Shown here in pieces: positions 18,540 through 30,073 of a DNA stretch of 64,000 nt (position 1 is its first letter; each line of letters begins with the position of its first letter). Source of the stretch: Mycolicibacter minnesotensis (lineage in GTDB: Bacteria; Actinomycetota; Actinomycetes; Mycobacteriales; Mycobacteriaceae); contig NZ_AP022589.1 of the NCBI RefSeq assembly GCF_010731755.1, forward strand, positions 1,364,001 through 1,428,000. The letters are read 5' to 3'. Below the pieces are notes generated by a model. The model was not told the origin of the DNA and searched no databases. It worked only from the letters and a program-made list of their open reading frames with translations. The position numbers and the translations under genes are program-made.

Positions 18540-19265
18540 GTGACGCGCATGCCGACACGCCTTGCCCACACCGCCGAGCCGCACGGGGGCTCGTTGACGG
18601 CAAAGCTCAACTGGCTGCGCGCCGGGGTGCTGGGCGCCAACGACGGCATCGTGTCGGTGGCCGGCATCGTGGTCGGCGTCGCCGCGGCGACCGTGCAGCG
18701 CGGTCCGATCTTCACCGCCGGCATCGCGGGCGTGGCCGCCGGCGCGGTATCGATGGCGTTGGGCGAATACGTCTCGGTGAGTACTCAGCGTGACACCGAG
18801 CGGGCCGTGCTTCACGAAGAACGCCGTGAACTGCAACAAGATCCCGCCGCCGAGCTCGAAGAACTTGCGGGTCTCTACCAGGAGAAAGGGCTATCGGCGG
18901 CGACCGCCCGGCTGGTGGCCCAGGAGCTGACCCAACACGATGCATTCGCCGCACACGCCGAGGTGGAACTGGGCATCGACCCCGACGATCTGACCAACCC
19001 GTGGCAGGCCGCCGCGGCCTCGGCCCTGGCGTTCACCCTCGGGGCACTGCTTCCCATGGTGGCGATCCTGGCACCGCCGACCGCGTGGCGGGTCCCGGTC
19101 ACGGTCGTGGTGGTACTGCTGGCCCTGATGCTCACCGGCGTGGTCTCGGCCCGCCTTGGCGGGGCAGAAGTACGAAAGGCGTTGCTCCGCAACACTACCG
19201 GCGGTGCGCTTGCGCTGGCGACCACGTACCTGATCGGCCACCTGGTCGGTCAGACAATCAGCTAG
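18540..19265 (+). CDS. VIT1/CCC1-family divalent metal transporter
   Basis: 241 residues. The hallmark first segment LRAGVLGANDGIVSVAGIVVGVAAA and the MALGEYVSVSTQRDTE region of vacuolar iron transporter-like proteins are present, with five hydrophobic segments overall. The central amphipathic acidic region (residues 85-140) corresponds to the metal-binding domain of the family. Members move Fe2+ or Mn2+. GTG at 18540 or the in-frame ATG at 18549 could be the start. It opens the accessory block that continues to 34.8 kb. Confidence 0.88.
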   Translation: MTRMPTRLAHTAEPHGGSLTAKLNWLRAGVLGANDGIVSVAGIVVGVAAATVQRGPIFTAGIAGVAAGAVSMALGEYVSVSTQRDTERAVLHEERRELQQDPAAELEELAGLYQEKGLSAATARLVAQELTQHDAFAAHAEVELGIDPDDLTNPWQAAAASALAFTLGALLPMVAILAPPTAWRVPVTVVVVLLALMLTGVVSARLGGAEVRKALLRNTTGGALALATTYLIGHLVGQTIS

Positions 19266-19280
19266 GGCGGGTCCGCAGCG

Positions 19281-20549
19281 ATGACGGAGCCTGACGGAGG
19301 GAGGCCGCCGCTGCGCCGACAGCTGGGCATGTTCGACGCAGTGACGATCGGGCTTGCCGCGATGATCGGCGCCGGCATTTTCGTGGCGCTGGGGCCGGCC
19401 GCACGAGCCGCAGGCCGCGCGATGCTGATCAGTCTGGCGGTGGCCGCCGTCATCGCTTACTGCAATGCGACGTCCTCGGCGCGGCTGGCCGCCCGATATC
19501 CGACCTCCGGCGGCACCTACGTCTACGGCCGCGAACGCCTGGGCCCGTTCTTCGGCTACCTGGCGGGGTGGGGATTCATCGTCGGCAAAACAGCGTCGTG
19601 CGCGGCGATGGCGCTGACGGTCGGGCTCTACGCCTGGCCCGCGCACGGGCACACGATCGCCGTGGCCGCGGTGCTGGGACTCACCACGGTCAACGTGATG
19701 GGCGTCCAGAAGTCAGCGTGGCTCACCCGGGCCATCGTGGCTGCGGTACTGGCGGTACTGGCAGCGGTGGTGTGCAGTGCGCTGGGCGCCAAAGGAGTTG
19801 CACCTCTGGAATCCTCCGACTCGCCTGCGTCGGTGCCGGGGGCGCTCCAGGCTGCGGGCCTGCTGTTCTTTGCGTTCGCCGGCTACGCCCGCATCGCCAC
19901 TTTGGGTGAGGAGGTTCGGGACCCGGCGCGCACCATCCCGCGCGCCATCCCGATCGCGCTGGGGATCACGCTGGCGGTCTACGCACTGGTGGCGTCCGCG
20001 GCCCTGAAGGTCCTCGGCCCGCAAGGCCTCGCCGACGCACCCGCACCTCTGGTGCAGGTCGTCACCGTCGCCGGGGCCGGCAGGCTGGCCGTAGCGGTGC
20101 AGATCGGGGCGATTTTGGCGGCCGGCGGATCGCTACTGGCCCTGATTCTCGGGGTGTCACGCACCACTCTGGCGATGGCCCGGGACGGGTATCTGCCCAC
20201 GTACCTGACCGCGGTACATCCCCGGTTCGGCGTACCGCATCGCGCCGAGATCACCGTAGGCCTGGTGGTCGCAATCCTGGCCGCCACCGCCGATATCCGC
20301 GGCGCCATAGGTTTTTCCTCGTTCGCGGTCCTGGTCTACTACGCCGTGGCCAACGCCGCGGCCTGGACCCTGACGCCCGCCGAGGGCCGACCGCCGCGCC
20401 TGATCCCGCTTGTCGGCCTGCTCGGCTGCACCGTTGTGGCGTTCGCCTTGCCGTTGGCCTCGGTCCTGGCCGGGCTCGTGGTCTTCGCTCTCGGCGTCGT
20501 CGCCTACGGCGCCCACGGGCGGATCGCGCGGCTGCGCGCAACCCCGTAG
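19281..20549 (+). CDS. APC-superfamily amino acid permease
   Basis: 422 residues, about twelve membrane segments. The first helix has the unwound substrate-site signature IGLAAMIGAGIFVALG, followed by YPTSGGTYVYGRERLG, both typical of APC amino acid transporters. It follows the VIT gene by 15 bases and precedes the NRPS-like gene by about 93 bases on the same strand. It might feed or export for that synthetase; the substrate cannot be read from the sequence. Confidence 0.88.
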   Translation: MTEPDGGRPPLRRQLGMFDAVTIGLAAMIGAGIFVALGPAARAAGRAMLISLAVAAVIAYCNATSSARLAARYPTSGGTYVYGRERLGPFFGYLAGWGFIVGKTASCAAMALTVGLYAWPAHGHTIAVAAVLGLTTVNVMGVQKSAWLTRAIVAAVLAVLAAVVCSALGAKGVAPLESSDSPASVPGALQAAGLLFFAFAGYARIATLGEEVRDPARTIPRAIPIALGITLAVYALVASAALKVLGPQGLADAPAPLVQVVTVAGAGRLAVAVQIGAILAAGGSLLALILGVSRTTLAMARDGYLPTYLTAVHPRFGVPHRAEITVGLVVAILAATADIRGAIGFSSFAVLVYYAVANAAAWTLTPAEGRPPRLIPLVGLLGCTVVAFALPLASVLAGLVVFALGVVAYGAHGRIARLRATP

Positions 20550-20628
20550 ACCCAGCACCTGAACGGTGGAGCGGACCTCCAACGCGCCGAGGTGCCGACG
20601 GCGCGCTGCGCACCCGGACCCTGCTCGG

Positions 20629-20634
20629 TACGTT
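20629..20634 (+). promoter_or_regulatory. Candidate -10 element of the Pls-like gene (leaderless)
   Basis: TACGTT ends eight bases before the GTG chosen as the start of the synthetase gene. No ribosome site is seen between them. It would give a leaderless or near-leaderless mRNA. The assignment rests on spacing only. Confidence 0.35.
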
Positions 20635-20642
20635 CTACAGTC

Positions 20643-23600
20643 GTGCCCTCACCGCATGTCCCCGCGCAGTATCTGCGCGCCTCCTCGGCGGCGCAGGCCC
20701 GCACCCTGATCGACATTCTGCAAGAGACCGCGGCCCGCTTCCCCGACGCTCCGGCGATCGACGACGGCAACGTGGTGCTGACCTACGCGGAGCTGATCGA
20801 GGACATCGCCGACAGCGTCGCGTGGCTGGCCGCACGAGGTCTGGGCCGCGGCGACCGTATCGGTATCCGGTTGCCGTCGGGGAACTACGCGCTCTACGTC
20901 GCGATCCTGTCCACCTTGGCCACCGGCGCGGCGTATGTACCGGTGGACGCCGACGATCCCCCCGAGCGCGCCGAGCTGGTGTTCAACGAGGCCCAAGTGG
21001 CGGCGGTGATCACCGATCAGGGCTTGATCCGCGGACCCGGGACGTCGCGCGGCTGGCAGGCAGGCGCGCCCCAGACCGATGACGATGCCTGGATCATCTT
21101 CACCTCGGGATCCACCGGCACCCCAAAAGGCGTCGCGATCACCCACCGCAACGCGGCCGCGTTCGTCGACGCCGAAGCGCAACTGTTTTTGCAGGACAAC
21201 CCGATCGGTCCGGGTGACCGGGTGCTGGCCGGGCTGTCGGTGGCATTCGATGCGTCCTGCGAGGAGATGTGGCTGGCATGGCGCTACGGTGCGTGCCTGG
21301 TACCCGCACCCCGGTCGCTAGTGCGCAGCGGTATGGATCTGGGGCCATGGCTGGTGGCGCGCGACGTGACGGTGGTGTCCACCGTGCCCACCCTGGCGGC
21401 CCTGTGGCCGGCCGAGGCCCTAGAGGCGGTGCGACTGCTGATCTTCGGCGGCGAGGCCTGCCCGCCCGAGTTGGTGGCCCGGCTGGCCGTCGACGGCCGC
21501 GAGGTGTGGAACACCTACGGCCCCACGGAGACCACCGTCGTGGCCTGCGCGGCACAGCTCGACGGCACCGGCCCGATTCAGATCGGGTTGCCGTTGGCGG
21601 GCTGGGACCTGGCAGTGCTCGGCTCCAACGGGGAACCCGTGGCCGCCGGCGAGGTCGGGGAACTCGTCATAGGTGGTGTCGGGCTAGGCCGCTACCTGGA
21701 CCCCGACCGGGACGCCGAGAAGTACGCGCCGCTGCCCACGCTGGATTGGCCGCGGGCCTACCGCAGCGGCGACCTGGTACGTCTGGACGCAGACGGGCTG
21801 ATCTTCTGCGGCCGCGCCGATGACCAGGTCAAGGTGGGCGGCCGGCGCATCGAACTGGGCGAGGTGGACAGTGCTCTGGTGACACTGCCCGGAGTCAGCG
21901 GAGCAGCGGCGGCGGTGCGCACCAGCGCCGCCGGCACCGCGCTGCTGGTCGGATACCTGGTCAGCGCCGACCCGGATTTCGACCTCGTTGCCGCGCGCGC
22001 CGAGCTGAGCCGGCGGCTGCCCGCCGCACTGGTGCCCCGGCTGGTGCTGGTCGATGAGCTGCCCACCCGCACCTCGGGCAAGGTGGACCGCGATGCGTTG
22101 CCATGGCCGGTGGGGCCTGAGTCCGGGGACGCAAACCTGGTCGGCGCCGACGATCCCGACAGCACCCTGGGCTGGCTGGCCGGCCTGTGGCGTGACGTGC
22201 TGGGCGCCCCGATCCACGACGAGCAGGCCGACTTCTTCGCCCTGGGCGGTGGATCGCTGCAAGCCGCGCAGCTGGTGGCCGCGGTGCGCCGGCGGTACCC
22301 GCAGACCACCGTCGCGCAGCTCTACGACCGGCCCCGGCTGGGTTCCCTGGCCAGTTTCCTCGACGACCTGGACCGCAGCGAGCCCGACAGTACGGCGGCC
22401 CGCTCGGTGGCGCCCACCCCTTGGGTGGCCCAGGCCGCGCAGGTGCTGCTGTCGGTGCCGCTGGCCACGCTGACCGGATTGCAGTGGGTGAGTTGGCTGG
22501 CACTTATCAACAACACGGTGTCGGCTATCCACCCGCTGCCCTGGCTGGTGCGTGTGGACTGGTGGTGGGTGATCGCCGCCTTCGTGCTGTTCGTCACGCC
22601 GCTGGGGCGGATGGGGATCGCCACCCTGGGCGCCCGCGCCCTCCTGGCCAATCTGGCCCCGGGAACCTATCGACGCGGCGGTCCCGAGCACCTGCGGGTC
22701 TGGATCGCCGAACGACTTGCAAGCGCCAGTGGCGCCGAGAATCTTTCAGGCGCCCCGTGGTTGGTGTATTACGCACGCGCGCTGGGTAACAAGATCGGCG
22801 AGGGCGTGGACCTGCATTCCGCCCCGCCGGTGACCGGAATGTTGACCCTGGGCCATCGCTGCTCCATCGAACCGGAGGTGGACCTGACCGGGCATTGGAT
22901 CGACGGCGACGAGTTCCACGTCGGCCCGATCACGGTCGGCAACGATGCCACGATCGGTGCCCGCACCACCCTGGCGCCCGGGGCTTCAGTCGGCAAGGAC
23001 GCCGACGTCGCTCCCGGTTCCGGGGTCATCGGCGAGGTCAAGAAAGGCCAGTACTGGACCGGTTCACCTGCGGTGAAATCCGGTAAGGCGCACCACCCCT
23101 GGCCGGATCACCGGCCGCCGGCGCGACCGGCGTGGGCCGCGGTCTACGGGTTGACGTCCCTGTTTCTCGGTGGCCTGCCACTGCTGGCGCTGGGCGCTGG
23201 CCTGGCGGTGCTGGGCTGGGCGGTTCGGGACTGCCAGACCCTGGCCGATGCCCTCCGGCCCGCCGCGCTGGCGACCCCGCCCGCCGCCTTGGTGGCGATG
23301 TTCAGCTACGCCGCCGTGACCGCGATCGCCGTCCGAGTGTTGTCGATCGGGCTACGCGACGGCTACCACCCGGTGCGGAGCCGGGTGGGCTGGCAGTTAT
23401 GGGCAACCGAACGGCTGATGGACGCTGCGCGCGACTACCTGTTCCCGCTCTACGCCGGGCTGATCACCCCGTGGTGGCTGCGGCTGTTGGGCGCGAAAGT
23501 CGGTAAAGGCGCCGAGATCTCCACCGCGCTGATGATCCCGAAGTACACCGTGATCGCTGACGGCGCGTTCCTGGCCGACGACACCATGGTCGCCTCCTAC

Positions 23601-24563
23601 GAGCTCGGCGGCGGCTGGATTCACGTCGCGCCGGCCACCATCGGCAAACGCGCGTTCCTGGGCAATTCCGGGATCACCCAGCCGGGCCGGCGAGTGCCCG
23701 ACAATTCCCTGGTGGCGGTGCTGTCCACCGCACCGCACAAAGCCAAGACAGGTTCGTCGTGGCTGGGCAGCCCGCCGGTCAGGTTGCGCCGCAAGGCCGC
23801 CGACCTCGATGCCGAGCGTACGTTCCACCCGCCGCGAAGGCTGTGGGTGATGCGCGCTGTGGTGGAGACCTTCCGGCTGGTTCCCGTCATGGTGACCTTC
23901 GCGATCGGTGTCGGGGTGCTCGGCGCCCTGCAATGGGTAGCGCTGCGATTCGGCTACGGCTGGGCTGCTCTGGTCAGCGGTGTGACATTACTGGCCGCGG
24001 GCGCGGTGGCCGGGGGCAGCGCAGTGGTGGCGAAGTGGTTGATCGTCGGCCGGATCCGGGCGACCCAGCGCCCGCTGTGGTCGTCGTTCGTGTGGCGCAA
24101 CGAAGTCGCCGATGCCTTTGTCGAGACGGTTGCCGCGCCGTGGTTCGCCCGCGCCGCGACCGGCACCCCGGTGATGAACCTATGGCTGCGTGCGCTGGGC
24201 GCCACGATCGGCCGCGGGGTGTGGTGCGAGACGTACTGGCTGCCCGAGGCCGACCTGGTGACACTGGAGAACGGCTCTACCGTGAATCGCGGGTGCGTGG
24301 TGCAGACGCACCTGTTCCATGACCGGATCATGCAGATGGACACCGTCACGCTGGAGGCGGGAGCCACCCTGGGCCCCAACTGCGTGGCGTTGCCCGCCGC
24401 CCGGCTGGGCACCGGCGCGACCGTCGGGCCGGCCTCCCTGGTGATGCGCGGCGACGAGGTGCCGCCGGCGACCCGCTGGCAGGGCAACCCGATCGCACCG
24501 TGGTTGGAGTCGGGCAAGAAGCGCGGATCATCGGGTTCCACCAGGCAGGAGCCCGCGGCATGA
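20643..24563 (+). CDS. Poly-lysine-synthetase-like NRPS (A-T-membrane-3xC)
   Basis: 1306 residues with the layout of epsilon-poly-L-lysine synthetase (Pls). An adenylation domain (about 40-480) has the ATP motif IIFTSGSTGTPKGVAITH, YGPTETT and the catalytic Lys in RTSGKVDRDALP. A thiolation domain follows with GGGSLQAAQL (Ser near 538). The rest holds paired membrane helices separating three left-handed beta-helix/acyltransferase-like domains (TIGR02353 type). There is no classical condensation or thioesterase domain. Aligning to GrsA, the ten specificity residues read D A E S I G T V V K, close to known lysine codes. The predicted product is a lysine or related amino acid polymer or isopeptide. 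The stop overlaps the next gene (ATGA). Confidence 0.88.
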   Translation: MPSPHVPAQYLRASSAAQARTLIDILQETAARFPDAPAIDDGNVVLTYAELIEDIADSVAWLAARGLGRGDRIGIRLPSGNYALYVAILSTLATGAAYVPVDADDPPERAELVFNEAQVAAVITDQGLIRGPGTSRGWQAGAPQTDDDAWIIFTSGSTGTPKGVAITHRNAAAFVDAEAQLFLQDNPIGPGDRVLAGLSVAFDASCEEMWLAWRYGACLVPAPRSLVRSGMDLGPWLVARDVTVVSTVPTLAALWPAEALEAVRLLIFGGEACPPELVARLAVDGREVWNTYGPTETTVVACAAQLDGTGPIQIGLPLAGWDLAVLGSNGEPVAAGEVGELVIGGVGLGRYLDPDRDAEKYAPLPTLDWPRAYRSGDLVRLDADGLIFCGRADDQVKVGGRRIELGEVDSALVTLPGVSGAAAAVRTSAAGTALLVGYLVSADPDFDLVAARAELSRRLPAALVPRLVLVDELPTRTSGKVDRDALPWPVGPESGDANLVGADDPDSTLGWLAGLWRDVLGAPIHDEQADFFALGGGSLQAAQLVAAVRRRYPQTTVAQLYDRPRLGSLASFLDDLDRSEPDSTAARSVAPTPWVAQAAQVLLSVPLATLTGLQWVSWLALINNTVSAIHPLPWLVRVDWWWVIAAFVLFVTPLGRMGIATLGARALLANLAPGTYRRGGPEHLRVWIAERLASASGAENLSGAPWLVYYARALGNKIGEGVDLHSAPPVTGMLTLGHRCSIEPEVDLTGHWIDGDEFHVGPITVGNDATIGARTTLAPGASVGKDADVAPGSGVIGEVKKGQYWTGSPAVKSGKAHHPWPDHRPPARPAWAAVYGLTSLFLGGLPLLALGAGLAVLGWAVRDCQTLADALRPAALATPPAALVAMFSYAAVTAIAVRVLSIGLRDGYHPVRSRVGWQLWATERLMDAARDYLFPLYAGLITPWWLRLLGAKVGKGAEISTALMIPKYTVIADGAFLADDTMVASYELGGGWIHVAPATIGKRAFLGNSGITQPGRRVPDNSLVAVLSTAPHKAKTGSSWLGSPPVRLRRKAADLDAERTFHPPRRLWVMRAVVETFRLVPVMVTFAIGVGVLGALQWVALRFGYGWAALVSGVTLLAAGAVAGGSAVVAKWLIVGRIRATQRPLWSSFVWRNEVADAFVETVAAPWFARAATGTPVMNLWLRALGATIGRGVWCETYWLPEADLVTLENGSTVNRGCVVQTHLFHDRIMQMDTVTLEAGATLGPNCVALPAARLGTGATVGPASLVMRGDEVPPATRWQGNPIAPWLESGKKRGSSGSTRQEPAA

Positions 24564-25915
24564 GCAAGCCCACGAAGGCGTCCGCCAAGTCGGCCAAGGC
24601 TCCGGCTCCAGTCCTCGACCCCTACCTGCCCGACAGTGGCAACACCGGTTATCGGGTCTCGCGCTACGAGCTCGATCTGGAGTACAAGGTCAGCAGCAAC
24701 CGGTTGTCGGGCACCGCAACCATCACCGCGGTGGCGCTCTACCCGCTGCGCGAAGTCACCCTCGACCTTGCCGGCACGTTGTCGGTGGCCAAGGTGTGGG
24801 TCAACGGTCGGCCCCCGGCCCGATTCGCCACGTCGTCGGCGAAGCTGCGGATCTCCCTGGCCACCACCGTGCCGACCGGTGCCGCCCTGGTGATCGCAGT
24901 CCGTTACTCGGGATCACCACGCCCCAGCGAAACACTTTGGGGTGAAGTCGGTTTCGAGGAATTATCGGACGGCGCCCTAGTCTCCGGACAGCCGAACGGC
25001 GCGCCGTCGTGGTTCCCTTGTGACGATCATCCCTACGCCAAGGCCAGCTACCGGATCCAGATCAGCACCGACAGTCCCTATTACACGGTCGCCAACGGCG
25101 AGCTGATGTCGCGGAGGGTCCGGGCAACCCGGACCACCTGGACTTATGAGCTGCCCGAGCCGACACCGACCTACCTGGTGACCCTCCAGATCGGGCGGTA
25201 TGTGACGCGCCGCGTGCCGGGGTCGGCAGTGGCGATCAGGGCGGTGCTGCCCGAGCGCCTGCAGTCCGAGTTCGAACGGGATTTCGCACACCAGTCGCAG
25301 ATGATGGAGCTGTTTGTGCGACTGTTCGGCCCCTACCCGCTGTCATCCGGCTACACCGTGCTGGTCACCGATGACAACCTGGAAATTCCCCTTGAAGCAC
25401 AGGGGATCTCGATCTTCGGAGCCAACCATTGCGACGGGACCGGAAGATCTGAGCGATTGATCGCTCACGAGCTGGCCCACCAGTGGTTCGGAAACAGTGT
25501 CACGGTGCGGCGCTGGAGCGACATCTGGCTGCATGAGGGGTTCGCCTGCTATGCCGAATGGCTGTGGTCGGAGCACTCCGGTGGGCCCACTGCCGACCAG
25601 CTGGCGCGGCGCTACCATCGGCAACTGGCCGGTCTGCCACAAGATCTGCTGTTGGCCGATCCTGGACCGGCCGACATGTTCGACGACCGGGTCTACAAGC
25701 GCGGTGCTATCACCCTGCATCTGCTGCGCGACATCCTCGGCGACGACGCCTTCTTCGCCCTGTTACGGGATTGGACGTCGCGCCACCGCCACGGCAACGC
25801 CGGCACCGAAGACTTCACCGCGCTGGCTGCCGGCTACGCCACAGGACCGCTGCAGCCGCTGTGGCAGGCCTGGTTGTATTCCACGGCTGTTCCCCCACTG
25901 TCGGCGCCGGGCTGA
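24560..25915 (+). CDS. M1-family zinc metallopeptidase
   Basis: 451 residues with the gluzincin site HELAHQWFGN (near 303) and the third zinc ligand in WLHEGFACYAEW about 18 residues on. The upstream exopeptidase loop reads LEIPLEAQG instead of the usual GAMEN. There is no signal peptide; residues 2-20 are Lys/Ala-rich. It is fused to the synthetase gene by an ATGA overlap, so the two proteins are made together. A peptidase coupled to a poly-amino-acid synthetase suggests trimming or degradation of its product. That is inference. Confidence 0.88.
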   Translation: MSKPTKASAKSAKAPAPVLDPYLPDSGNTGYRVSRYELDLEYKVSSNRLSGTATITAVALYPLREVTLDLAGTLSVAKVWVNGRPPARFATSSAKLRISLATTVPTGAALVIAVRYSGSPRPSETLWGEVGFEELSDGALVSGQPNGAPSWFPCDDHPYAKASYRIQISTDSPYYTVANGELMSRRVRATRTTWTYELPEPTPTYLVTLQIGRYVTRRVPGSAVAIRAVLPERLQSEFERDFAHQSQMMELFVRLFGPYPLSSGYTVLVTDDNLEIPLEAQGISIFGANHCDGTGRSERLIAHELAHQWFGNSVTVRRWSDIWLHEGFACYAEWLWSEHSGGPTADQLARRYHRQLAGLPQDLLLADPGPADMFDDRVYKRGAITLHLLRDILGDDAFFALLRDWTSRHRHGNAGTEDFTALAAGYATGPLQPLWQAWLYSTAVPPLSAPG

Positions 25916-25931: not shown

Positions 25932-27224
25932 CTAGGCGGATCGGGCTGCCGACCTCGTCCGCCGCGACCGGTGCGGCAAGGCCCGCGGTGTCGACCAGCG
26001 CAGGTGAAAGTCGACGACCAGGGCGGCCGGAACCGCCAGTGCCACCGGGGTGAACATCGGTGACTGGCCATCACCAGCAATGCCGGTGAGAACCCGGCCG
26101 CCGTAGCCGTCCTCGGTACCGGGCACCGTGACGCGCACCCGCGCCGACCCCGCGCCAGGCTGCGGCCGGAGGTAGAAGACACCGCCCGGCTCTACCGGGC
26201 CGGTCAGCTTGTTGCCCTCGGCGTCCAAGAGCTCGGCGCCCTCGGCGCTCAATGCGGCGGAGTCGGCAACCGAAAGCTGCAGCGGTCCCACCACTCCGTC
26301 GGCCAGGACCGCCGTCGCGACGTTGAGGCCCGGGGCGGTGGTACGCGCCCGTGCGGCACCGTCGAGCAGGTATCGGTAGAGCATCACGATGCGATCGGCA
26401 TTGCGATAGGTGCTGGTGCCGTTGAGCCAGAAGTCGACATCGCCGATAGTCGCAGGCTTACCGGGCCCGGCCACCGACAGACGGTAGAAGCGGTGGCCCC
26501 CGACCGTGGCCCCCACTCCGAGCGCCTTACGCTGCGTGCCGGAGGCACCGGCAAACAGCAGCGAGGACGGAACTTCTCGCCAGGTCCGGCCGTCATCGGA
26601 TTTGTGCAGGGTCACCGTGACCGACTCCGAGGCGACCAGTTCCAGGGTGTATCCGCCCAACTCCAGAGCCTCGTCGAACTCCACGGTCACACCGTCTCCG
26701 TCGCGGCGCACCCGGACCGGCTCCGTGCGGGCACGGGTGTCCAGTTCCAAGCCGTTGGTCAGCCGCCAGATCGCGGCCTGAGTGGCGGCAATCGCCTCGT
26801 GCTCGGAGATGTTGCCCCGGCCCGACAGGTGTCCGGCCTCCCGCAGCCGACGGCTCAGCTCGACGGTGCTCAATCGCGGTACGGAGTTGCGCAGGATCCA
26901 GTCGACCTGCACCTCGCGGGGGTCACGGGAACGCAGGTGAGGCACCGCCGACCAGGTGTCGATCCGATACGACGACGGGCGAGTGGGAGCGATGCCGTGG
27001 AAATCCAGCGAATACGCCGCGATCCCTGGGTTGAGCCGGATCAGATCGGTGCGCGCGCTCGTCCCGTCGGTGAACACGATGCGGTCGACGGTGTGCGAGT
27101 ACGTGCCACCGTGGTACCGCGTCATCCGGTCGATGTCGACGGCCGGGCGGGGTTGCACTCTGCGGCGGACGACCACTGCGGGAGCGGTGTGGCGAAGAGG
27201 AAGAACGGAGGTGGAATCGGTCAT
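25932..27224 (-). CDS. Thioester-domain (TQXA)-like protein lacking the cysteine
   Basis: 430 residues. The TQXA motif ATQAAIWRLTNG is present (Gln149). In thioester domains this Gln is bonded to a Cys that lies in a [YF]-C-x-D context about 77 residues earlier. Here that position reads AYSLDFHG (Ser72), so the classical Cys-Gln thioester cannot form. The rest looks like Ig-like beta-sandwich domains. There is no signal peptide at the ATG at 27224, no sortase motif and no C-terminal anchor, so export is uncertain. It converges with the M1 peptidase gene. Confidence 0.7.
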   Translation of the reverse strand: MTDSTSVLPLRHTAPAVVVRRRVQPRPAVDIDRMTRYHGGTYSHTVDRIVFTDGTSARTDLIRLNPGIAAYSLDFHGIAPTRPSSYRIDTWSAVPHLRSRDPREVQVDWILRNSVPRLSTVELSRRLREAGHLSGRGNISEHEAIAATQAAIWRLTNGLELDTRARTEPVRVRRDGDGVTVEFDEALELGGYTLELVASESVTVTLHKSDDGRTWREVPSSLLFAGASGTQRKALGVGATVGGHRFYRLSVAGPGKPATIGDVDFWLNGTSTYRNADRIVMLYRYLLDGAARARTTAPGLNVATAVLADGVVGPLQLSVADSAALSAEGAELLDAEGNKLTGPVEPGGVFYLRPQPGAGSARVRVTVPGTEDGYGGRVLTGIAGDGQSPMFTPVALAVPAALVVDFHLRWSTPRALPHRSRRTRSAARSA

Positions 27225-27510
27225 GCCGAGTCGACTTTCTGGTCTGAAGCGCGCACGGCAGCACCTCGCCGAGATAGGGGCGGGCTGCGACGCTAAGGAA
27301 TCAGGGCGTCAGAGAATCAACAACAACAACACGCGGCGCGGCGGCACAAAGCGTGCGGCTGTGGCAGCGTGATGTTCGACATAGACATACCCTACGACAT
27401 GTACCGCAGCCGCGCGACTTGCGAGGTATTCAATTCGCCATGAGCGCAACTGGTGGGCAAACCGGGACGATGGTCCATGATTGGCGCCGTCACTCATCAG
27501 GAGGAAAGCA

Positions 27511-28434
27511 ATGACGTCCGCTCAGAACGAATCTCAGGCGCTCGGGGACCTGGCTGCACGGCAACTCGCCAATGCGACCAAGACTGTCCCGCAGCTGGCC
27601 ACCATCACGCCGCGCTGGCTGTTGCACCTGCTGAACTGGGTCCCGGTGGAGGCCGGTATTTACCGGGTCAACCGGGTGGTCAACCCCGGCCAGGTCGCCA
27701 TTGCCGCTGAGCAGGGCGCCGGTTCGACCGAACCGCTGCCGCAGACGTTTGTGGACTACGAGACCAGCCCGCGGGAGTACACCCTGCGTTCGATCTCCAC
27801 GATTCTCGACGTGCACACCCGGGTCTCCGACCTGTACTCCAGCCCGCACGACCAAGTGGCTCAGCAGCTGCGCCTGACAATCGAGACCATCAAGGAGCGC
27901 CAGGAGTTCGAGCTGGTGAACAACCCGGAGTACGGCCTGTTGGCGCAGGCCACGCCCGAGCAGACCATCTCCACCCTGACCGGCCCGCCCACTCCCGACG
28001 ACCTGGATTCGCTGATCACCAAGGTGTGGAAGACGCCCGGCTTCTTCCTGACCCACCCGCTGGGTGTGGCCGCCTTCGGCCGCGAAGCCACTCGCCGCGG
28101 CGTGCCGCCGGTGGTGGTGAACCTGTTCGGCGCCCAGTTCATCACCTGGCGCGGCATCCCGATCATCCCCAGCGACAAGGTGCCGGTGGAGGACTCCAAG
28201 ACCAAGTTCCTGCTGGTGCGCACCGGCGAGGAGCGTCAGGGCGTCGTCGGACTGTTCCAGCCGGGCCTGGTCGGCGAGCAGGCGCCGGGCCTATCGGTGC
28301 GGTTCACGGGCATCAACCGGTCGGCGATCGCGTCCTACCTGGTCACGCTGTACAACTCACTGGCCGTGCTCACCGATGATGCGCTCGCTGTGCTCGACGA
28401 CGTCTCGGTGGACCGTTTCCATGAGTACAAGTGA
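27511..28434 (+). CDS. Family 2A encapsulin shell protein (MMP-I / SrpI type)
   Basis: 307 residues, the length of M. leprae major membrane protein I. The sequence matches the family 2A encapsulin shell through NATKTVPQLATITPRWLLHLL, TLRSISTILDVHTRVSDLYS, LVNNPEYGLLAQATP and TRRGVPPVVVNLFGAQFITW. It forms a T=1-type protein nanocompartment with an HK97 fold. ATG at 27511 has GGAGG six bases upstream, whereas earlier starts do not. Its last 14 bases overlap the start of the cysteine desulfurase gene, the known cargo of this encapsulin class. Confidence 0.93.
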   Translation: MTSAQNESQALGDLAARQLANATKTVPQLATITPRWLLHLLNWVPVEAGIYRVNRVVNPGQVAIAAEQGAGSTEPLPQTFVDYETSPREYTLRSISTILDVHTRVSDLYSSPHDQVAQQLRLTIETIKERQEFELVNNPEYGLLAQATPEQTISTLTGPPTPDDLDSLITKVWKTPGFFLTHPLGVAAFGREATRRGVPPVVVNLFGAQFITWRGIPIIPSDKVPVEDSKTKFLLVRTGEERQGVVGLFQPGLVGEQAPGLSVRFTGINRSAIASYLVTLYNSLAVLTDDALAVLDDVSVDRFHEYK

Positions 28435-30073
28435 TCCCAGGCCGGTAGACCCGCCGGTCAGCGTCGCTGAGCTGGAGGCGCTGGCCAACCAGCTGTATGC
28501 CGCCCGGCCCGGTCCCGACTCTCCGCCGCAGACCACGGCGGTGGCACCCCGAGGCGGCGTCCCGACCCCGTCCGGACTGCTGCCGCCGGGGTTGGCAGAC
28601 CTCTCCGCGTTCGCGGTGCCCAGCGGGATCGTGCCGACCGCGCCCGGGGTGCTGGCCGGTTCCCCAGCCGGGACTGTTCCGGTTGCACCGCGCGGATCGG
28701 CCCCCAGCTGGCCCGGCGGGGTGCCGACGGTTCCACACCTGGGTTGGCATGACGCCCCCGCGCCGGCCACGGGCGGCGACGAGGCGAACTACGCCTTCTT
28801 GTCCCGCTCCGTCCCGGCCGCCGAACCGGCTCCCACGGTGCCCGACTCGCATGAGGTGTTCGACGTCAACGCGGTGCGCGCTGACTTTCCGATCCTGCGC
28901 GAGACCGTCAACGGCAAGCCGTTGATCTGGTTCGACAACGCCGCCACCACGCAGAAGCCGCAAGCCGTGATCGACCGGCTGTCGTACTTCTACGCCCACG
29001 AGAACTCCAATATCCACCGGGCCGCACACGAACTCGCAGCGCGGGCCACCGACGCCTACGAGGACGCTCGCGACACCGTGCGGCGATTCCTGGGGGCACC
29101 GCGTAGCGAGGACATCGTCTTTGTGCGCGGTACCACCGAGGCGATCAACCTGGTGGCCTACGCGTGGGGCGGCAAGCACCTGGGCCCCGGCGATGAGATC
29201 GTCATCACACACCTAGAGCACCACGCGAATATCGTTCCTTGGCAATTGATCTCGAAGAAAACCGGGGCGATCCTGAAGGTTGCCCCGGTAGATGACGCGG
29301 GCAACCTGCTGCTGGGTGAGTTCGAAGACCTGTTGGGTCCCCGCACCAAACTGGTCGCCGCAACCCACGTCTCCAATGCACTCGGCACCGTCACCCCGGT
29401 GCATAAGATCGTCGAACTCGGGCACCGCTACGGCGCCCGAGTGCTCATCGATGGGGCGCAGTCCATCCCCCATATCCCGATCGATGTGCAATCACTGGGC
29501 GCGGACTTCTTCGTGTTCTCCGGGCACAAGATCTTCGGCCCCACCGGGATCGGAGCGCTCTACGGCACCGCCGAAGCGCTGGCCGAGACGCCGCCGTGGC
29601 AGGGTGGAGGCAACATGATCGCCGACGTCACCCTGGAACGCTCACTGTTTCAAGAACCGCCCAACAAGTTCGAGGCGGGTACCGGAAACATCGCCGACGC
29701 GGTCGGCCTGGGCGAAGCCCTGCGCTACGTGGAGCGGGTGGGTGTCGAACGCATCGCCGCCTACGAGCACGCCCTGCTGGAGTACGCCACGCCACGCCTG
29801 GCCGAGATCCCGGGAGTGCGAATCATCGGCACAGCCGACGAAAAGGCCAGCGTGTTGTCCTTCGTGCTGGCCGGCCACGATCCGGTCGAGGTCGGCAAAG
29901 CGCTCAACTCCGAGGGCATCGCGGTGCGCGCCGGGCATCACTGCGCGCAGCCGATCCTGCGCCGCTATGGCCTGGAGGCCACCGTGCGACCGTCGTTCGC
30001 GTTCTACAACACTTTCGAAGAGATCGACGTCTTCATCAAGGCCGTGCGGCGCATCGCCGAAGGGAGCGCCTAG
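28421..30073 (+). CDS. Encapsulated cysteine desulfurase (SufS type) with disordered N terminus
   Basis: 550 residues. Residues 1-145 are a Pro/Gly/Ala-rich disordered extension, the region that targets this enzyme to family 2A encapsulins. The PLP domain follows with the lysine in [16 protein letters not shown] and the catalytic cysteine in [15 protein letters not shown], a group II (SufS-like) arrangement. It takes sulfur from cysteine as a persulfide, and in related systems the shell stores sulfur. The ATG at 28421 lies inside the end of the encapsulin gene. It heads into cysK and cysE. Confidence 0.93.

Follow-up and report, generated by a model that had tools for sequence, protein, structure and literature searches.

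A predicted epsilon-poly-L-lysine synthetase gene and its overlapping M1 peptidase gene in Mycolicibacter minnesotensis

Described synthetase-peptidase operons and the mycobacterial locus

In Streptomyces albulus, the epsilon-poly-L-lysine synthetase gene pls forms one operon with pldII, the main degradase gene, which overlaps it by 4 bp (PMC4361855). PldII is described as an aminopeptidase whose gene is translationally coupled to pls, and S. albulus strains in which pldII is repressed are reported to be harmed at lower polymer concentrations (PMC9223678). PldII activity has been located at the cell surface (PMC9205021). A pls-peptidase operon is also on record for Corynebacterium variabile: its pls gene, when expressed in S. 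coelicolor, led to epsilon-poly-L-lysine, while neither the polymer nor the Pls protein was detected in C. variabile itself (PMC8117764). Pls has further been predicted in Nocardia (PMC4035055). A related enzyme, PosA, is the delta-poly-L-ornithine synthetase of Acinetobacter baumannii and is described as the product of a single-gene operon (PMC10522769).

In the window (the whole 64,000-nucleotide stretch of Mycolicibacter minnesotensis DNA analyzed here), we find two genes of this kind, whose features are collected in Table 1. As described for S. albulus Pls and PldII, a synthetase built of an adenylation (A) domain, a thiolation (T) domain and three repeats, each with two paired helices and a unit, is encoded next to a peptidase gene that shares 4 bp with it (PMC4361855), but the host is here a mycobacterium. 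Compared by description, the C. variabile enzyme has the same architecture and operon type and differs in coming from another genus (PMC8117764); PosA shares the synthetase family and architecture. The novelty that the original prediction implied for the pair does not hold, since the pls-pldII operon (PMC4361855, PMC9223678), the C. variabile operon (PMC8117764) and a Nocardia Pls (PMC4035055) have already been described. The pairing is thus a known one, although we found no study of its product for this group.

Table 1. Features of the synthetase and peptidase genes in the window
Feature	Position	Strand	Details
Pls-type NRPS	20592..24563	+	1323 aa from GTG 20592, or 1306 aa from GTG 20643
Adenylation domain core	20781..21908	+	TIGR01733 match, residues 64-439
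Thiolation (carrier) domain	22173..22361	+	Residues 528-590; PF00550, 42.7 bits
Pls/PosA terminal domain	22437..24494	+	Residues 616-1301; threefold repeat of paired helices and a beta-helix (hexapeptide-type) unit
Motif QTHLFHDR	24303..24326	+	Residues 1238-1245, third unit; candidate condensation site
M1 family zinc peptidase, PldII-like	24560..25915	+	451 aa; PF01433 and PF17900
HELAH zinc site of M1 peptidase	25466..25480	+	H303, E304, H307
Third zinc ligand E326 of M1 peptidase	25535-25537	+	

We estimate at roughly 85% the probability that the two genes correspond, in a mycobacterium, to the pls-pldII operon of Streptomyces, by which a polymer is made and cut. The A domain would adenylate L-lysine and then load the T domain. 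Bond formation would fall to the terminal domain, bound to the membrane, where the thioester-linked lysyl group would be joined to the epsilon-amine of either free lysine or the growing chain. The product would be epsilon-poly-L-lysine, which enzymes of the Pls kind make in chains of about 25-35 units. The overlapping M1 gene would be co-translated with the synthetase, and its product would cut the polymer and protect the producer. At the sequence level one can read all the domains, a predicted lysine pocket, an intact zinc site, the ATGA shared by the two genes, and their strict occurrence together and side by side; production of the polymer by this host is suggested. Were the genes expressed, mycobacteria would be added to the organisms known to make this antimicrobial polymer, which finds use in food preservation. 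In the literature we searched, most subscription journals being outside its scope, no mycobacterium is reported to make epsilon-poly-L-lysine. C. variabile carries pls without detectable polymer; therefore, the window gene may be silent too.

Judged by its sequence, the reading frame ending at 24563 is predicted to encode a complete Pls. The terminal half of the protein scores 736.3 bits against TIGR02353, the NCBIfam model of the Pls/PosA family, for a cut-off of 423.1, which agrees with the family assignment proposed beforehand. Pfam models recognize solely AMP-binding, PP-binding and two hexapeptide families, one of them below its cut-off: by this measure the synthetase is a single A-T module with no condensation or thioesterase domain. 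The thiolation domain contains LGGGS, presumably the phosphopantetheine site, and the host genome has two matches to PF01648, the ACPS/phosphopantetheinyl transferase family. The open reading frame begins at GTG 20592, and GTG 20643 is an equally plausible start according to tblastn match starts in 80 relatives (the best 80 of at least 587). Counted in residues of the longer reading, 41 of the 80 matches start at 18-28, 20 start at 1-17, 16 start at 29-38, and 3 start further on.

The M1 peptidase and its pairing with the synthetase

The peptidase gene starts at ATG 24560, so that the ATGA at 24560-24563 is made of the last four bases of the synthetase frame, stop codon included. What had been called an 'ATGA fusion' is therefore a genuine 4-bp overlap and not a fusion: the two reading frames are separate. 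Translational coupling of the two genes appears likely. The zinc-binding HELAH motif and E326 are invariant in 80 alignment rows, representing the window and 79 of 80 loci (L057 was left out). The nearest solved chain, PDB 6a8z / 6iff, matches residues 18-450 with 152 bits; it is a distant relative, an M1 zinc metalloprotease that we take to be from Deinococcus. We liken the M1 protein to S. albulus PldII by gene order and zinc peptidase class, by way of published descriptions.

A Pls gene lies upstream on the same strand in all 80 M1 relatives (the best 80 of at least 587), some of these being cut by contig ends. The exact 4-bp overlap is seen in 39 of the 80 pairs by a rule that takes the start codon nearest to the stop and thus favors overlaps. 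At one locus (L066) the two genes are 531 bases apart, and another (L108) is an outlier in this count because its synthetase match contains a stop. This locus set, being the best 80 of at least 587 confirmed relatives, leans to close relatives; the closest is Mycolicibacter engbaekii, with 88% identity for the synthetase and 86% for the M1 protein. Nineteen of the loci are titled Streptomyces, S. albulus not among them, with identities of 57-61% and 52-54%, respectively. One record, titled as a Bifidobacterium breve MAG (L055), has a 75% identical synthetase and two further mycobacteria-like neighbors, and is probably mislabelled or mixed.

We then asked how often the genes occur together in 100 genomes, comprising the host's own and 99 relatives. 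TIGR02353 is matched above its cut-off in 61 genomes and the M1 protein, at 1e-60, in 70. Ten of the 70 M1 matches are distant (at most 42% identity) and occur in genomes with no TIGR02353 match above cut-off. In all 60 genomes with a close M1 gene, a synthetase match is adjacent; the distance to the domain match is at most 164 bases in 59 cases and 579 bases in a fragmented genome (G090). We therefore reject the idea that an arbitrary M1 peptidase serves as the partner. Of 60 genomes from the genus, 46 contain both genes and 14 have neither at the thresholds used, three of the 14 (G005, G025 and G052) being less than 90% complete. In a sample of 296 genomes from the phylum, a synthetase is matched at 1e-100 in 14. 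Exactly these 14 also carry an adjoining M1 gene, with at least 50% identity and at most 352 bases from the synthetase; one further genome has a 41% M1 match alone. This search scored two synthetase candidates per genome and may therefore miss divergent synthetases. As the pair recurs across Actinomycetota, we consider it more than a chance association: the original prediction of a synthetase gene paired with a zinc peptidase gene is supported, with M1 as the regular partner of Pls across relatives.

Two cases break a strict pairing rule. The genome G095, the sole one with a synthetase but no close M1 gene (none at 1e-60), has a weaker Pls scoring 568 bits against TIGR02353, and the genome G030 has a second Pls copy (L136), 72% identical, with no M1 match on its 10-kb contig. 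We also observed two divergent Pls paralogues (L134 and L135; 33-34% identity) in other genomes of the order. Their pocket, read by eye, is DFECLGTVTK, with Phe at the second position, and no M1 match is present in the 17-20 kb fetched around them. Tight synthetase-M1 pairing may mark the lysine branch of the Pls/PosA family.

The M1 protein has no hydrophobic N-terminus by hydropathy, a point that weighs against its likeness to S. albulus PldII, whose activity is at the cell surface: even when the upstream reading is included, only 2 of 81 proteins have a hydropathy window above 1.6, and such a segment is likewise missing from the Streptomyces M1 rows listed. With no export signal seen by hydropathy, the enzyme may act inside the cell. 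This, together with the persistence of the M1 gene beside the synthetase gene across the phylum sample, would suit an enzyme whose main task is to bring the polymer to its working length or to recycle lysine, and not to protect the producer. We regard such a role as rather unlikely, given the harm that S. albulus is described to suffer at lower polymer concentrations when pldII is repressed (PMC9223678) and the reported activity of PldII at the cell surface (PMC9205021). Polymer degradation, probably in self-protection, is a better reading of the M1 peptidase than polymer maturation, and the window protein may well degrade the polymer. More tentatively, we may hypothesize that mycobacteria are unrecognized epsilon-poly-L-lysine producers: most of the genus would have kept an old gene pair, and the polycation, checked by an intracellular-looking M1 enzyme, might have a role in the envelope instead of being secreted as an antibiotic. 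We see this as possible, with the odds against it.

Terminal domain and lysine pocket

An AlphaFold2 model of the terminal domain, built from 47 sequences (mean pLDDT 89.5, pTM 0.90), contains three repeats, each combining two paired helices with a unit made up of short strands, for a total of six membrane helices and three soluble units. Five of these helix regions are picked up by hydropathy with a cut-off of 1.5; the first of the six (residues 611-646) peaks at 1.45. The A-T layout followed by three membrane and condensation-like repeats, as initially proposed, is thus recovered both by family models and by the three helix pairs of the structural model. Profile and structure searches of the terminal domain lead to hexapeptide acyltransferases, among them maltose and galactoside O-acetyltransferases and CysE, with structure matches that stay below Z 8 in the repeat search and lie mainly over the first unit. 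These matches agree with a published description of three acetyltransferase-related domains (PMC8117764).

The motif QTHLFHDR of the third unit is invariant in all 47 aligned proteins and takes the form QTHLFEDR in the two divergent paralogues. In the window protein, the first and second units lack it at the aligned positions. We infer that the third unit holds the condensation site. In hexapeptide acyltransferases, a histidine acts on the acceptor amine, and by analogy the histidine of unit three may do the same. A mutational study in print, cited as reference 63 of PMC9205021, reportedly covers the three domains, and we therefore claim no novelty for this site. The fully conserved motif offers a concrete set of residues with which to probe how a peptide bond is formed without a classical condensation domain.

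Many positions of the terminal domain are common to the window protein and its Streptomyces homologues. This conservation, which extends to the domains and the pocket, argues against a mycobacterial enzyme that would no longer make a secreted polymer and would instead form short lysyl isopeptides or decorate the envelope. Such a change of product would fit a gene retained in most genomes of the genus even though its product is absent from the literature searched, but we consider it improbable.

The solved protein nearest to the A domain is PDB 7wew, an epsilon-poly-L-lysine synthase that we take to be the S. albulus protein; it matches residues 14-507 with 630 bits, compared with 205 bits for 8g95, the A domain of PosA. 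The specificity pocket reads DAESIGTVVK, composed of D220, A221, E224, S263, I284, G286, T308, V316, V317 and K497, the last of which sits downstream of the TIGR01733 core. Among 81 aligned proteins (the window protein and those of the best 80 of at least 587 relatives), two loci are truncated ahead of the pocket and hence unreadable; the same ten residues are present in all 79 readable proteins, comprising the window protein and 78 others. They also occur in 7wew, as read off the alignment by eye, and it is by way of this structure that the window pocket resembles that of S. albulus Pls. The code is the one initially derived for this gene, which the alignments with these proteins and with 7wew reproduce. 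By comparison, the pocket of PosA, the ornithine enzyme, is DMEHNGTVSK, and lysine enzymes are described as having Ala in place of PosA Met218, the second pocket position (PMC10522769). The sequence evidence supports DAESIGTVVK as a lysine pocket, and L-lysine is the likely substrate of the window synthetase.

That the same machinery would polymerize another diamino acid (ornithine, diaminobutyrate, diaminopropionate or beta-lysine) is conceivable in that the Pls/PosA family includes such enzymes and pocket codes merely predict specificity (PMC10522769), but we hold this very unlikely, as all ten pocket residues equal those of the lysine enzyme 7wew, and the divergent paralogues combine a different pocket with the lack of a neighboring M1 match.

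Genes flanking the pair

Genes of the VIT1 and amino-acid permease families occupy positions 18540-20549, between a gene for a 597-aa protein with no family match and the synthetase gene. A wider gene cluster including them was considered and ruled out, as they are not conserved with the pair: neither has a tblastn match at 1e-10 in the best 80 of at least 587 loci, within up to 10 kb on each side. Among three neighbors from the genus, the permease occurs in none, and VIT1 is found in L131 only, both genes being absent from L132 and L054. We also surveyed stop-to-stop reading frames of at least 150 aa lying no further than about 3.5 kb from the pair in the 59 loci longer than 21 kb; at the coarse BLAST settings used, no family of flanking frames was present in more than 8 of the 59.

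Downstream of the pair, a gene for a thioester-domain (TQXA/TED) protein lies on the reverse strand at 25932-27224, convergent with the M1 gene. The stretch 27481-30073 contains a Family 2A encapsulin shell gene (502 bits) and, in the same orientation and overlapping it, a gene that we take from its translation to be cysteine-desulfurase-like. A relative of the cysteine-desulfurase-like protein (32-36%) was observed upstream of the synthetase gene, on the opposite strand, in L056, L058, L064, L068, L070, L071, L072 and L076.
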